Positions 32,176-55,736 of a stretch of 64,000 nucleotides of DNA are shown piece by piece; the stretch's first letter is position 1, and every line of letters starts with the position of its first letter. Source of the stretch: an uncultured Nitrososphaerales archaeon. Its GTDB lineage: Archaea > Thermoproteota > Nitrososphaeria > Nitrososphaerales > Nitrosocaldaceae. The notes under the pieces were generated by a model. The model ran no database searches. It worked only from the letters and a program-made list of their open reading frames with translations, and had not been told where the DNA came from. Where the stretch lies: assembly GCA_938030895.1 (NCBI GenBank), contig CALHIV010000007.1:1-64000 (forward strand), given 5' to 3'. The position numbers were made by a program, and so were the translations under genes.

Positions 32176-33330
32176 TCAGAACTGTCTATGTAGTATAGAT
32201 CCTAGCCTCCCTCTTGTAACTGCTATCATTACAGCCATTATGGATGCTACTATGGCCATGACACCCAGAGGGAACTCCGGTACAACAACTATATTGAACT
32301 CTGTCTTGTCTACTATCTTCGTCTCCCCCTCTCCTGTTCTGAAGGATGTCAGATAACTCACTACTACTCTCTTGGTACCTTCACTCTCGAACCTTACAGT
32401 TACAGGCTGGAGGTTGTTGCTCAACTCCTGCCTTAGTATGCTCTTATCCCCATCGAATATCTCTATTGTATACCTCTCAGTATCCCTGAGTGGTCTCTTT
32501 GATGGATCGTAGAGTTGTGCTGCAAACTGAACATCCTGCCCAGGCATTATGGTTTGGGGACCCCAGTAGAGTAGTACATATACGCTACCATTACTGCTCA
32601 ACTTCTCCAATGGTGGCTTTGGTATCTCAACTACGCTAGGTGTCAACTCTATAGGCTTATCACTCCTCCCGAACCTCTTCAACTCGAATGAGTACTGTAC
32701 TGGTATAGGCTCTTCTGTCCTGAATGCATATACCTCAGCCTTTATAGGTAGAGGGAAGTTCTCTGCAACCCATATCTTGCTATCCTTGGCGTATCTGAAT
32801 CCTACTATTGTAGTATTCCATGGTGTATTTGCAGCTGTTACCTGCTCATTTGTAACCTGTAATGATGCTGGAGCGCCAACACCAACTGGAACCCCACCGG
32901 TTATTGCAAGCCTACCCCATGCAGATGGTGCGAGTGGTTTTGGATCAGCACTGTTTGCAAAATCACCAAGCCATGTCAACGTCCTCTGTACTATCGCTCT
33001 ATACTTGCTAACTGAAGGCTCTGCACTCTGTGGCTGCATATTAATGCTTGATAGAACCATCTTTCCATTGCTTACAGAGCCAGCATCGTTAACACTTACA
33101 TCTGCTACCCAGTTACCTTGATCGTCCCTTGAGCCTAGCCATATTGCGATCTCTAACTCTCTACCACTCTCATACTCAAGATCCCTTATAGTATACACAA
33201 AGTATGTGCCAAGTTCTGCCCCCTTGCCAGGATACCATGTTGATTGTGCATCTGCAACCGTTACAAGGCTTGAGATAGATAGTACTGCTGTTAATATCAT
33301 TACTGCTACATATGTTGTTACTCTCTTCAT
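32176..33330 (-). CDS. Exported surface protein with PEF-type sorting end (384 aa)
   Basis: Residues 1–28 form a signal peptide (VAVMILTAVLSISSLVTVADA). The mature part contains repeated beta-rich stretches (GSVYVLLYWGPQTIMPGQDVQF and a following SKRPLRDTERYTIEIFDG) that look Ig-like. The end is VVPEFPLG, then a hydrophobic run GVMAIVASIMAVMIAVT and the basic tail RGRLGSILHRQF. This is a classic PEF-type tripartite signal, the best candidate substrate here for the sortase-like protein at 49878–50840. TATA at 33353–33361 predicts a leaderless transcript. Confidence 0.88.
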   Translation of the reverse strand: MKRVTTYVAVMILTAVLSISSLVTVADAQSTWYPGKGAELGTYFVYTIRDLEYESGRELEIAIWLGSRDDQGNWVADVSVNDAGSVSNGKMVLSSINMQPQSAEPSVSKYRAIVQRTLTWLGDFANSADPKPLAPSAWGRLAITGGVPVGVGAPASLQVTNEQVTAANTPWNTTIVGFRYAKDSKIWVAENFPLPIKAEVYAFRTEEPIPVQYSFELKRFGRSDKPIELTPSVVEIPKPPLEKLSSNGSVYVLLYWGPQTIMPGQDVQFAAQLYDPSKRPLRDTERYTIEIFDGDKSILRQELSNNLQPVTVRFESEGTKRVVVSYLTSFRTGEGETKIVDKTEFNIVVVPEFPLGVMAIVASIMAVMIAVTRGRLGSILHRQF

Positions 33331-48652: not shown

Positions 48653-48722
48653 GCCTACAGTGTATAGTATAGTATAGTAGCCTAATAATATGTATATAGT
48701 ACAGGTTATACTTACTCAATCT

Positions 48723-49826
48723 ATGGTTAGTGATAAGGGTAGAGGTAGGATAGTAATGCATGTTGATCTGGATTACTTTTATGCCCAGTGTGAGGAGTTG
48801 AGGAGGAACGATCTGAAGGATAAGCCTGTAGTTGTATGCGTGTACTCTGCTAGAGGGGGTGATAGTGGTGCTGTAAGTACCTGTAACTACAAGGCTAGGG
48901 CATACGGTGTAAAGGCAGGCATGCCTATAGTACAGGCGAAGAGACTGCTCAAGGATGCTCAGGATGCTGTATTCCTTCCGGTAGATGAGCAGTACTATAC
49001 AAGTGTATCAGATACTGTTATGGCAATACTTAGGGCAAACTCAGATGCGTTTGAGCAGGTGAGCATAGACGAGGCTTACATGGATGTGAGCATAAGATGC
49101 AAGGACTTTGATGGTGCAGTAGAACTTGCCTCAAGGCTGAAGGATGAGATAAAGGCTACTGTAGGACTGACATGCTCAATAGGGATAGGGATGAACAAGT
49201 TGATAGCGAAGATGGCATCAGACTATAGGAAGCCAGATGGACTTACAGTAGTTAGACCAGAGGATACGCAGGAGTTCATAAACCCTATGAGTGTTGGTAA
49301 ACTGCTATGGGTAGGGAAGAAGACGGAGGCTACGCTAAACTCCATGGGCATATATACAGTAGGTGATCTTGCTAAGGTAAGCATAGATAGGCTCATCAGA
49401 GAGTTTGGGAGGAAGATGGGTGTATACCTTTACAACGCATCTAGAGGTATAGATGAGGAGCCAGTCAAGGAGAGTGCGGTAAAGCAGATAAGCAGGATGA
49501 CAACGCTCAAGAGTAATACTAGCGTAATCGAGGATATGCTTGATGATCTTAATACTTTGAGCATGGAAGTGCATAAGAGTTTAGTTGAGCAAAGACTGCT
49601 CTTCAGATCCGTAGGCGTAATGCTAGTTTATGAGGATCTGAGTATGAGGAGCAGGGTGAGGGTGCTCAAACACTACACCGATAGGGTTGATGATATAATG
49701 AGGTATGCAAGGGTACTGCTTGAGGAGATGCTTGAAGAGAGTAACAAGGCTGTGAGGCGTCTAGGTGTAAAGGTCTCAGATCTAGCAAGTGTAGAGGGTC
49801 AGGAGACCCTGCAGAGGTTCATGTAG
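48723..49826 (+). CDS. dinB: DNA polymerase IV (Y-family, DinB/Dpo4)
   Basis: The lesion-bypass polymerase (367 residues from ATG 48723) has the catalytic VMHVDLDYFYAQCEE with metal Asp and steric gate aromatic, VSIDEAYMDVS with the second Asp/Glu pair and CSIGIGMNKLIAKMASDYRKPDG. The thumb and little-finger parts follow. I prefer ATG 48723 over 48690 because a TATA-like element at about 48690–48700 fits a leaderless start and the family begins just before the first strand. No PIP-box is obvious. Confidence 0.93.
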   Translation: MVSDKGRGRIVMHVDLDYFYAQCEELRRNDLKDKPVVVCVYSARGGDSGAVSTCNYKARAYGVKAGMPIVQAKRLLKDAQDAVFLPVDEQYYTSVSDTVMAILRANSDAFEQVSIDEAYMDVSIRCKDFDGAVELASRLKDEIKATVGLTCSIGIGMNKLIAKMASDYRKPDGLTVVRPEDTQEFINPMSVGKLLWVGKKTEATLNSMGIYTVGDLAKVSIDRLIREFGRKMGVYLYNASRGIDEEPVKESAVKQISRMTTLKSNTSVIEDMLDDLNTLSMEVHKSLVEQRLLFRSVGVMLVYEDLSMRSRVRVLKHYTDRVDDIMRYARVLLEEMLEESNKAVRRLGVKVSDLASVEGQETLQRFM

Positions 49827-49877: not shown

Positions 49878-50840
49878 TCACTCGTTATCTTGTATATTCT
49901 TACTGGCAGTATCATTGCCCATACTCTTTGCTCTCCTACTCTCAACATACATTATAAGTGTGAGGTAACCAGCAAGCCATGGTAGGAACATGATCTCTCC
50001 TGCTACTGAATGGAATGACTCGAATGCATTGATATCAGCACTGACAGTAAGAACGTATATTGATAGGGCGAGTATCCTCATCGTGTTAACGAATACAGTG
50101 CCAGCAACGCCTACAGCAAAGTAGATAGCCTTCCTCCTAGGCTGTATATTCATCTTGAGTAGGAATGCTAGCATGACTAGAGAGTATATGATGATGCTAT
50201 GGACCCCTGCAGATGGCCAGAATACCTGAAGGGCCATCGAACCTTTGCTCCCATTCAGGAAGAGCATATTGCTCCTTGCTGTAGCACTCCCTATATCCAA
50301 CGTATTTATTATCCAGGCATCGAACTGGAGAAGGTATGGTACTATGAACTGCAATGGTCCTAGAGTATTGTACGGGAAGAAGGCATCCAACGATAGTATG
50401 ATTGCACTCCCAAGGAGGTATATTGGGCTTGCAGGGGCTATCCTTACCCATCTCCTCCCATATAGTATGCTGAGTGCCCCAACCATGAACGACCCTAATA
50501 CTATATAATCCCACATCCATGTCCAACTATCCTTTAGCCTTACACCATAGTGTTGTGCTGAATCCATTATAACCTGCCTATAACCATTCTCCACTAGAGT
50601 GAAGTACACCATGCATGCAACTGCAAGAATCGATGCTAGGTATAGCCTCCTCCTTGCCATAGCATACTTTATGCCTGCGATCTCTGCAACTATGAATGCT
50701 AGAGCGAATAGGAATCCTCCCCTACCCTCATTCCAACCCATCTGGAATGTATCAGGTGCTATTGCAATGGTGTAGAGTACTGGGGATGCAAGTAGTATGA
50801 GTATGGGTATGTAACTGCCCTCTAAACTAATCGCCTTCAT
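49878..50840 (-). CDS. Archaeosortase/exosortase-family protein with Ser at the nucleophile position
   Basis: A polytopic membrane protein of 320 residues, with about eight helices. The exosortase catalytic region is visible as FWPSAGVHSIIIYS: Ser210 stands where C-S-G-(I/L)-(R/G)-S has cysteine. Arg255 in VNTMRILALS and His277 in FESFHSVAGE match the other two conserved residues. Such enzymes cut sorting ends (PEF-type) of exported proteins and may attach lipid. A thaumarchaeal subfamily is known to me in outline; whether it always has Ser I cannot confirm. PEF-type candidates lie at 32176–33330 and 1–476. Confidence 0.8.
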   Translation of the reverse strand: MKAISLEGSYIPILILLASPVLYTIAIAPDTFQMGWNEGRGGFLFALAFIVAEIAGIKYAMARRRLYLASILAVACMVYFTLVENGYRQVIMDSAQHYGVRLKDSWTWMWDYIVLGSFMVGALSILYGRRWVRIAPASPIYLLGSAIILSLDAFFPYNTLGPLQFIVPYLLQFDAWIINTLDIGSATARSNMLFLNGSKGSMALQVFWPSAGVHSIIIYSLVMLAFLLKMNIQPRRKAIYFAVGVAGTVFVNTMRILALSIYVLTVSADINAFESFHSVAGEIMFLPWLAGYLTLIMYVESRRAKSMGNDTASKNIQDNE

Positions 50841-50895: not shown

Positions 50896-52260
50896 CTAGA
50901 CTCGTTGTGCTACATAATCCAATAGCCTAGTCTGATACCCTTTCATACCTCTCAGCATATGACTCTCTCTAGTCCATTCCTTTAACGGTATCTTTAGCAT
51001 ACTCATAGCATATTTAAGGGCATCATCTATATCTGTGAACCTTGCACCATTGCCCTTGAGCATAGCTCTAACATGCTCCCTTACAAACCATACACCGACT
51101 GGTATATTGAACCCTGGGTATATCTCTCTAAGCATGAGAACCCTTGCCTGCCTCTTCATGGATGCTAGATGCTCAGAGACTGCAAGCCTGGCAGAGTAGT
51201 AGCATCCTCCAACCTTAGCATACTCCTTCCTTCCCCTATAGCCCTCATGATCGCCTATCATCTCATAACCACTGCCATAAGCGTTCCATACTGTGTTTGG
51301 GAACCATGCCTCGACCCACTCGAACTCCCATGCGCCTGGCATAAGTATGCATAGGAACCTGTTCATGCTAACCTCTCTAGAGTATACAATATACTCATCT
51401 ATGCTAGGCTCATCCCTTATCTCCTCTATCAATGCTCTGGATATGGTATCATCAACAGCAGTTATACTCCACCTTGTTGGTACAAACCTCCTCCTACTCT
51501 TATAGCCTAGACAGCCAGCGCTCAATGCCCTTACTATGCTTGATATACCTGTACCTTGGTTGTAGAGTTGTACAATTGCTTCCCTTGCGCTCAGATCATC
51601 ATAGTATGCCTTCTCTATCCTATCATCAACCCTTATATAACCTACCTTTAACCTCTCCACCTCTGCCGATGGGCCGGATGGAGGGAGATACTCGCTCAGG
51701 CTTATCCCCGAGGGTTTGTGTTTGAGGAGCATCTCAGCATAAACTTGCAGTTTAGCCATAGCAAGCTCCTGTATAATGGATGTTATCCTATTAGATTTGG
51801 TTGGTGTCGCATCATCCACATGCACTCTAACCTTGCCTCTAACCATCGTTAATCTGAACCTGAGTATATCATCAAGAGTAGTATCGTGCCACTGCTCTGG
51901 GCAGTCATACATGCTTATGTCTGCACTACCTTCATCCTCAAGAGATATCATGGGTCCTATACTGACCTTTGGATACCCAAACCTACCAACGAATACAGAT
52001 GGTGGTGTGTAACCATCTATACTCTTATCTACACTACGCTCGAGCATGGTCTTGAGACTTGATGCAATGATGGGGCAGTATGCTAGACCACATAGATACT
52101 TACTGCCTCTACACTGTAGACAAAGGGATGGGTTAAGGGTAGGATGTATAGGCTGTAGTAGAGGGAGAGGAGGGGATGATTGGCGTGATGGTTGTGGTTG
52201 TAATGATGGTGAGCGTGATTGTGAGCATGATGGTAACCTATACCTACTATTATGCATCAT
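50896..52260 (-). CDS. Nre-family DNA-repair protein
   Basis: The 454-residue archaeal Nre (DUF650/651) protein has a Pro/Ser/Gln-rich N-terminus, a zinc-like CLQCRGSKYLCGLAYCPI at about residues 47–64, then the family segment VFVGRFGYPKVSIGPM. RFVPTRWSITAVDDT follows in the middle. The C-terminal QTRLLDYV fits a PCNA-interacting Q-x-x-L-x-x-Y box. Nre proteins take part in DNA-damage repair in Haloferax. It is 64 bases downstream of the ABC ATPase gene on the same strand, apparently unrelated. Confidence 0.9.
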   Translation of the reverse strand: MMHNSRYRLPSCSQSRSPSLQPQPSRQSSPPLPLLQPIHPTLNPSLCLQCRGSKYLCGLAYCPIIASSLKTMLERSVDKSIDGYTPPSVFVGRFGYPKVSIGPMISLEDEGSADISMYDCPEQWHDTTLDDILRFRLTMVRGKVRVHVDDATPTKSNRITSIIQELAMAKLQVYAEMLLKHKPSGISLSEYLPPSGPSAEVERLKVGYIRVDDRIEKAYYDDLSAREAIVQLYNQGTGISSIVRALSAGCLGYKSRRRFVPTRWSITAVDDTISRALIEEIRDEPSIDEYIVYSREVSMNRFLCILMPGAWEFEWVEAWFPNTVWNAYGSGYEMIGDHEGYRGRKEYAKVGGCYYSARLAVSEHLASMKRQARVLMLREIYPGFNIPVGVWFVREHVRAMLKGNGARFTDIDDALKYAMSMLKIPLKEWTRESHMLRGMKGYQTRLLDYVAQRV

Positions 52261-54425: not shown

Positions 54426-54473
54426 TACTTATCCCTATACTTATCCTTATACTTATGCCTATACTTATGCCTA
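54426..54473 (+). repeat. 12-bp tandem repeat at the 3' end of a surface-protein gene
   Basis: Four units close to TACTTATCCCTA/TACTTATGCCTA follow each other, the last overlapping the stop of the minus-strand gene at 54471. They may form part of the terminator, since the minus strand reads TAGGCATAAG repeats. Confidence 0.75.
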
Positions 54474-55736
54474 TACCACATCTACCTCAAGCACTTGTAC
54501 AGGCGCAAGTGCTACTGGCTTGCTTATACTATCCAACACAAATACCTCTATCCTGTATGTACCCTGCTTATCAGGGGTCCATGGCAATGTAACTATTGCA
54601 CGTGTACTGCTAGCCAACTCAGATGCTACCATACTTATAGTTGCTACTGTGCCATCGGAGTACTTCACCTGTGCTATACATACAAACTCTTGTGCTAATG
54701 GTTGCCTGTTAAGAAGCTCAACCTTCACCGCTAACTTGCTCCCAAATGAGAGCACCCTTATCTGCTCACCGAACTGTGTTATGATCTCTGGTTTAGATAC
54801 CTTGAACCTCTCCCTTGCAGGTATCCCAGTACCAAACACAGCCTCAGCAGTTACATACCTCATCTCAACCGTTGTTATGTTATCTGCTCCAAGCCTCACT
54901 GGATAAGGCAGCGTATCATCGAGATACCTTACAAATATCCTATCGTTATCTGTAACTCTTAGGGACTGTAGCATGTTATGCTCGCTGGAACCATGGTTAA
55001 GGTCGACCGCTCCCTCGAATATGCCAGTGTTCACATCGCTCTCAACCAATACTAGCCTCATACCTGCAGTATCTGTATCAGACCATAGGAGTACTGTAAC
55101 CTTCTCCCTAGCATATGGATCCCTGTTTGCATCTGGCTCCTCAAGCCTTATCTCCGCCTTATCTATAGAGTAGTAGAACTGTCTATCGAATGAGAGTTTA
55201 GCCTCATGATATACTATTCTTGCAGATGTTGCTATGACAGTATTGTAGACTGCTATCAACCAATCATCACGCCTAACCTCAACCTCACCGTTGTATACCA
55301 AAGGATTAGGGGTCAGCCTTACACTGCCCTTGAAGATACCACTGCTAGTAGATGTCTCAACCAAGTTTACTGCTATGGAGTTTCTACCCTTTACAGTTAC
55401 ACTAACGACATCTGCTGCGCTAGGATTGGTATCCCTTGACTTATCATAAAGGGTTATACCAACCACTTCGAATGGAGTATACTTGCTCTTATCGAATGTT
55501 AGTGATGGTATAGGGTTACCACCGCTACTACTACCATAATCGCTATTACTCTCTATCTTGATTCTACTACTGCTACTGCTACTGTTACTGCTACTACCAT
55601 TGTAATCAAACTGCACTGCATCTGCAACCACATCCACATCCGCTGATTCTGGGATATCTACGTAGGGTGCTGACTTTATCGATGGGGCTAAGAGTAACAC
55701 CATGATCATGTACGTATACGTCTGCATACCCAGCAT
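54471..55736 (-). CDS. Exported beta-sandwich surface protein (421 aa)
   Basis: A signal peptide (residues 1–23, YMIMVLLLAPSIKS) is followed by a Ser/Asn-rich low-complexity run (SSSNSSSSSS) at about 48–58. Then come repeated modules with the same end: LVETSTSSGIFKGSVRL and LVESDVNTGIFEGAVDL. This T-G-I-F-x-G module is frequent in thaumarchaeal surface proteins. The final domain is Ig-like (AQVKYSDGTVATISMVASEL…GTYRIEVFVLD). No anchor helix is seen at the C-terminus, so attachment must be non-covalent or via another protein. Confidence 0.85.
   Translation of the reverse strand: MLGMQTYTYMIMVLLLAPSIKSAPYVDIPESADVDVVADAVQFDYNGSSSNSSSSSSRIKIESNSDYGSSSGGNPIPSLTFDKSKYTPFEVVGITLYDKSRDTNPSAADVVSVTVKGRNSIAVNLVETSTSSGIFKGSVRLTPNPLVYNGEVEVRRDDWLIAVYNTVIATSARIVYHEAKLSFDRQFYYSIDKAEIRLEEPDANRDPYAREKVTVLLWSDTDTAGMRLVLVESDVNTGIFEGAVDLNHGSSEHNMLQSLRVTDNDRIFVRYLDDTLPYPVRLGADNITTVEMRYVTAEAVFGTGIPARERFKVSKPEIITQFGEQIRVLSFGSKLAVKVELLNRQPLAQEFVCIAQVKYSDGTVATISMVASELASSTRAIVTLPWTPDKQGTYRIEVFVLDSISKPVALAPVQVLEVDVV

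Follow-up and report, generated by a model that had tools for sequence, protein, structure and literature searches.

What does an archaeosortase do with serine at the position of its catalytic cysteine? The question is raised by a gene on the minus strand (50840..49878) of the window, the whole 64,000-nucleotide stretch of DNA analysed here, which encodes a polytopic membrane protein of 320 amino acids with an ATG start. A sequence-only reading of this DNA had taken the product for an archaeosortase-like enzyme with Ser210 in place of the catalytic cysteine. The catalytic mechanism of exosortases and archaeosortases and their acceptor are unsettled. As judged from sequence, the serine is fixed in all examined members of a whole family and is probably the sign of a functional enzyme that anchors proteins by means of serine.

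Family membership, distribution and descent of the enzyme

Aligning the protein with NCBIfam models, the thaumarchaeal one included, as the sequence-only reading had proposed, gave a match of 406.9 bits to TIGR04297 ('thaumarchaeosortase'; curated cut-off 250) over residues 15-315. The superfamily model TIGR04178 (exosortase/archaeosortase) matched with 44.6 bits (curated cut-off 23). The best of the other named archaeosortase models was archaeosortase C, TIGR03762, with 31.2 bits; this is well under its cut-off of 100, and the window protein is not a member of that family. The remaining archaeosortase models all scored below their own cut-offs, and Pfam Exosortase_EpsH (PF09721) gave 19.6 bits, below its gathering score of 25.7. 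On these scores the window protein is typical of TIGR04297, the standard archaeosortase of ammonia-oxidizing archaea: it matches the family over its full length, shares the serine column and shows no notable difference. The assignment to archaeosortase homologues thus stood. The enzyme is not an unrecognised one: names exist in NCBIfam for it (TIGR04297) as well as for its partner signal (TIGR04296, PEFG-CTERM). The exchange of cysteine for serine is a family trait that NCBIfam curators could in principle have seen. The word thaumarchaeosortase was absent from the papers in the open literature library that we searched, and the passages of that library mentioning PEFG-CTERM did not treat mechanism. 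The value of the locus is a clean natural comparison, not a new system.

In the source genome, the thaumarchaeosortase was the sole exosortase/archaeosortase found. Its closest named relatives (about 90% identity) are encoded by Candidatus Nitrosocaldus genomes, which points to a Nitrosocaldus-like ammonia-oxidizing archaeon as the source of the window. Of 398 genomes sampled from the phylum, 69 had a TIGR04297 match over the cut-off, and each of the 69 falls in the order of the window, in keeping with a family confined to ammonia-oxidizing Nitrososphaeria; 53 further genomes had weaker matches. The enzyme was missing in 4 of the 6 sampled genomes of one family (f3, probably Nitrososphaeraceae). 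No relatives were found on viral contigs. A typical thaumarchaeosortase (59% identity) was present on a contig titled Gammaproteobacteria bacterium BBSC-SA02 (BMAH01000059.1; locus L132), probably a mislabelled or contaminated assembly.

In a tree of 65 rows, the serine proteins formed one clade (support 100/99), and this monophyly fits a single change from cysteine to serine. Sister to the clade (support 99/95) were cysteine-type proteins encoded in other families within the phylum, which are 26-33% identical to the window protein. The branch leading to the serine clade is long (1.41 changes per column), and within the clade, as the tree is drawn, the Nitrosocaldus branch splits earliest. Gene order agrees across the clade. 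Directly upstream on the same strand lies a gene for an Nre DNA-repair protein (50896..52260, minus; Pfam Nre_N and Nre_C), relatives of which were found near the sortase gene at 91 serine-type loci and at no cysteine-type locus. On the other side, a gene for a Y-family DNA polymerase (Pol IV; 48690..49826, plus; Pfam IMS) is convergent with it, tail to tail; relatives of this gene were found at 126 serine-type and 2 cysteine-type loci. The constant position between these neighbours points to vertical descent. At about 48 serine-type loci (e.g. L029:211-891), a gene upstream of the sortase gene resembles one for a membrane-anchored DsbA-type thioredoxin-fold protein, as judged by eye from its sequence, and another small membrane protein is encoded near the sortase at 57 serine-type loci; neither cluster has members near cysteine-type enzymes.

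Serine in the column of the catalytic cysteine

The three active-site positions proposed in the sequence-only reading fall in the aligned active-site columns. Ser210 (codon TCT, 50211..50213, minus), in the motif WPSAGVHS, occupies the column of the catalytic cysteine; Arg255 (50076..50078, minus) is the conserved active-site arginine and His277 (50010..50012, minus) the conserved third residue. Among the features of TIGR04178 members are a catalytic cysteine, a conserved arginine and a third residue that is Arg, His or Asn. Arg255 and His277 provide the latter two, and at the first there is Ser210 with no substitute cysteine. Homology to the superfamily therefore stands on the alignment, whereas membership as a cysteine-type enzyme does not.

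Open frames from the sampled genomes, 96 in total, were aligned. Within the thaumarchaeosortase family, each of the 47 distinct rows has Ser, Arg and His at these positions; each of the 45 rows of more distant relatives has Cys, Arg and His. Arg255 and His277 are thus invariant on both sides. A scan of named genomes gave 216 relatives, of which 80 were kept and aligned with the window protein; Ser-Arg-His was present in 81/81 rows of this second set, which overlaps the first. The replacement of cysteine by serine was thereby borne out and extended to the whole family. That the serine is an artefact of sequencing or assembly, or a local mutation in a gene undergoing decay, we reject outright: the residue is present in the 47 members from sampled genomes and in 81/81 rows from named genomes, including isolates and complete chromosomes. 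In a census of the serine codon, TCT, TCA, TCC or TCG was found depending on the genome. All four TCN codons are in use, indicating that selection has held the residue while the codon drifted.

Another candidate reading is a cysteine enzyme whose catalytic residue has moved elsewhere; the window protein does contain one cysteine, C76. We looked for a true cysteine elsewhere at the active site, the finding that would have refuted the sequence-only reading, and found none. C76 lies far from the motif and is common to only 4 of the 47 relatives, and 37 of the 47 serine-type proteins contain no cysteine at all. A displaced catalytic cysteine is rejected at the sequence level, and we regard it as extremely improbable.

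Other fixed polar residues distinguish the serine clade. His214 (codon 50199..50201, minus), one helical turn past Ser210, was present in 47/47 serine-type rows of the first set and 80/81 of the second, and is near-invariant in this clade only; the cysteine-type relatives have E, Q, D, H or L at the position. D111 (mostly Glu in the cysteine types), N191 and Q205 are likewise fixed in the serine clade and absent from the cysteine types. That His214 serves as a helper base is a guess.

An AlphaFold2 model built with 47 sequences showed a confident multi-helix fold (mean pLDDT 88.3, pTM 0.81). In the model, helix 209-229 has Ser210 at its start, helix 234-265 contains Arg255 and helix 270-319 has His277 near its start. 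One basic stretch (R235, R236, K237) lies where the first of these helices gives way to the second, and another near the C-terminus. Based on the positive-inside rule, these stretches would place Ser210, Arg255 and His277 near the outer face of the membrane, close to the predicted outer ends of the last three membrane helices. No homologue of the window protein was found in the PDB by sequence or by fold.

A Cys173-to-Ser mutant of ArtA, the archaeosortase of Haloferax, reportedly shows no processing of its substrate. If so, a natural serine form has probably acquired compensation in its active site, or else has lost catalysis. According to the second possibility, the exchange ended catalysis and the protein does no more than bind PEF tails, acting, for instance, in insertion or retention; the long branch of the serine clade is of the kind expected after a change of function. 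Dead sites, however, usually drift, and here the serine has been kept through all TCN codons, with the arginine and the histidine invariant over the entire clade. Because of this invariance, we consider lost catalysis improbable.

PEF tails and their occurrence with the enzyme

The same window had been said to encode an obvious PEF-type substrate, and the tail architecture is indeed present. A gene at 32176..33330 (minus) encodes a putative substrate, a secreted PEF-CTERM-type protein of 384 amino acids with a signal-peptide-like N-terminus and the end ...NIVVVPEFPLGVMAIVASIMAVMIAVTRGRLGSILHRQF. Its tripartite C-terminal signal (32179..32283, minus) consists of VPEFPLG, a hydrophobic helix and a basic tail, reading VVPEFPLG-helix-RGRLGSILHRQF. 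Homologues from the other three genomes in the genus (L195, L196, L204) carry the same kind of tail. The PEFG-CTERM model TIGR04296 gave only 14.9 bits for this protein, under its cut-off of 25. Other proteins of the window had been credited with similar ends; three of them have a C-terminal helix with basic residues, but none has PEF. Also encoded in the window (54471-55736, minus) is a secreted protein of 421 amino acids without a PEF tail. Its similarity to the Kustd1514-type anammox S-layer glycoprotein is weak, at 39.3 bits where the cut-off is 1400.

Genome-wide, at least 8 secreted proteins carry tails of the form PEF[P/G]-helix-basic (the PEF protein of the window and C4, C5, C6 (two), C11, C16 and C24), and two further proteins have PEF tails with longer cytoplasmic ends. 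TIGR04296 scored over its cut-off for one protein of this genome (35.7 bits). The signal here differs from PEFG-CTERM in that 7 of the 8 strict tails read PEFP rather than PEFG and either fall below the cut-off of TIGR04296 or were found by a custom tail model only; PEFG predominates among the tails seen in Nitrosopumilaceae.

Among the genomes tested, TIGR04296 scored over its cut-off in 33/33 with the enzyme and in 0/27 without it (0/5 for those of the 27 that belong to the same order); the 33 cases are phylogenetically nested and do not represent 33 independent events. Together with the tails in the source genome, this distribution supports the proposed link between the enzyme and PEF substrates. 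Such joint presence and absence also argues against a protein that merely binds the tails. At two loci of Nitrosopumilaceae (L037:4110-4925 and L160:5077-5892), a gene for a secreted PEFG-CTERM protein precedes the enzyme gene by 58 bases, and its product is possibly a dedicated substrate.

The custom tail model (A3) had limited sensitivity as a negative control, missing real IPEFP tails in genome G334, and we added a search with a DNA pattern for [V/I/M]PEF[G/P/A/R], in which a site was counted if the protein ends with a helix. By this search, 10 of 12 sites were tails in the source genome (8 strict), whereas two ammonia oxidizers without the enzyme had 10 sites and not one tail. In G334, which has a cysteine-type archaeosortase, 3 of 6 sites were tails. 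The search was noisy in the cysteine-type sister genomes; it found PEF tails in G001, G027 and G160 and none among the 8 sites checked in G219. PEF tails also adjoin cysteine-type enzymes at loci L063, L082 and L094, and at L059 the tail belongs to an open frame overlapping the cysteine-type gene. The PEF signal therefore occurs on both sides of the change from cysteine to serine, which argues that the task was kept.

Two of the cysteine-type genomes deserve separate mention. In G001 (L267, L293, L296, L299, L301), the PEF pattern occurred at 38 sites, compared to 15 in a reversed control; several proteins end in IPEF-helix-basic, and the genome may encode a large PEF-CTERM set. G334 (L094, L241, L243, L245) belongs to the same order as the window and is without thaumarchaeosortase. 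Its very divergent cysteine-type archaeosortase is encoded beside a protein with an IPEFP tail; here another enzyme goes with a similar signal.

Proposed mechanism, acceptor and comparison with known systems

In sortase-like enzymes, the substrate first forms an acyl-enzyme and then passes to a nucleophile. We consider it fairly probable that the window protein is a working archaeosortase of the serine type, which cleaves PEF tails by means of Ser210 and passes the protein to an acceptor at the surface. Secreted proteins would arrive with a C-terminal tail in which a [V/I]PEF[P/G] motif is followed by a membrane helix and then by basic residues. Cleavage would occur at or near the PEF motif, on the outer face of the membrane, by the enzyme with Ser210, Arg255 and His277. 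The intermediate would be a serine acyl-ester instead of the usual cysteine thioester, and the protein would probably be handed to an acceptor and thereby retained at the cell surface. We infer, reasonably in our opinion, that Ser210 would be the nucleophile of a transpeptidase, and also that the tails would be cleaved and that transfer rather than plain hydrolysis would follow.

ArtA has been proposed to form a thioester on Cys173 and to transfer its substrate to archaetidylethanolamine (PMC7157517). Phosphatidylserine decarboxylase was absent in all 20 genomes of the phylum tested, with positive controls in Haloferax, Methanocaldococcus and Methanosarcina, and PssA-like proteins gave only sub-threshold matches. 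Since the decarboxylase is absent, archaetidylethanolamine is an unlikely acceptor here. An amine lipid of the Haloferax type could not be made by the known route, and acyl-esters of serine hydrolyse readily; both facts would suit a serine hydrolase, in which Ser210 cleaves PEF tails, water resolves the acyl-enzyme and the substrates are set free or kept in place through other contacts. But the decarboxylase is equally missing in the cysteine-type relatives of the phylum, so that its absence is not tied to the serine, and other acceptors are possible, such as sugar or inositol head groups. We regard hydrolysis as unlikely, if somewhat less so than lost catalysis. Because the decarboxylase is missing from cysteine-type genomes too, we rejected the idea that serine arose in connection with loss of the ethanolamine-lipid pathway.

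Transfer by a serine enzyme is thus the reading we prefer. Its fullest form, a natural serine-nucleophile archaeosortase of most ammonia-oxidizing archaea that arose by a single ancestral change, with compensating changes such as His214 and an acceptor other than archaetidylethanolamine, we put forward tentatively, at a little short of an even chance. It is speculation that serine is protective, in that cells exposed to peroxide and nitric oxide would have no thiol facing outward. The enzyme may explain how ammonia oxidizers hold their surface proteins. Among these are a PEFG-CTERM multicopper oxidase with a proposed function in ammonia oxidation (PMC9122916) and PEFG proteins described as raised under peroxide stress (PMC6593220). 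A natural, clade-wide serine form, with cysteine relatives that occur with the same type of tail, provides a matched comparison on the requirement for the nucleophile.

Rhombosortase, which acts on GlyGly-CTERM proteins, is a serine enzyme working on tripartite C-terminal tails (PMC3237569, PMC11980579); it belongs to the unrelated rhomboid family, and the likeness is one of chemistry only. With ArtA of Haloferax volcanii, the window protein shares the superfamily, the polytopic membrane architecture, tripartite C-terminal tails on the substrates or putative substrates, the conserved arginine and, by analogy, a presumed outward active site. The two differ in their residues and signals: in ArtA, Cys173, Arg214 and Arg253 are critical and the tails are of the PGF type (PMC9263693, PMC7157517), whereas here Ser, Arg and His are found together with PEF tails.
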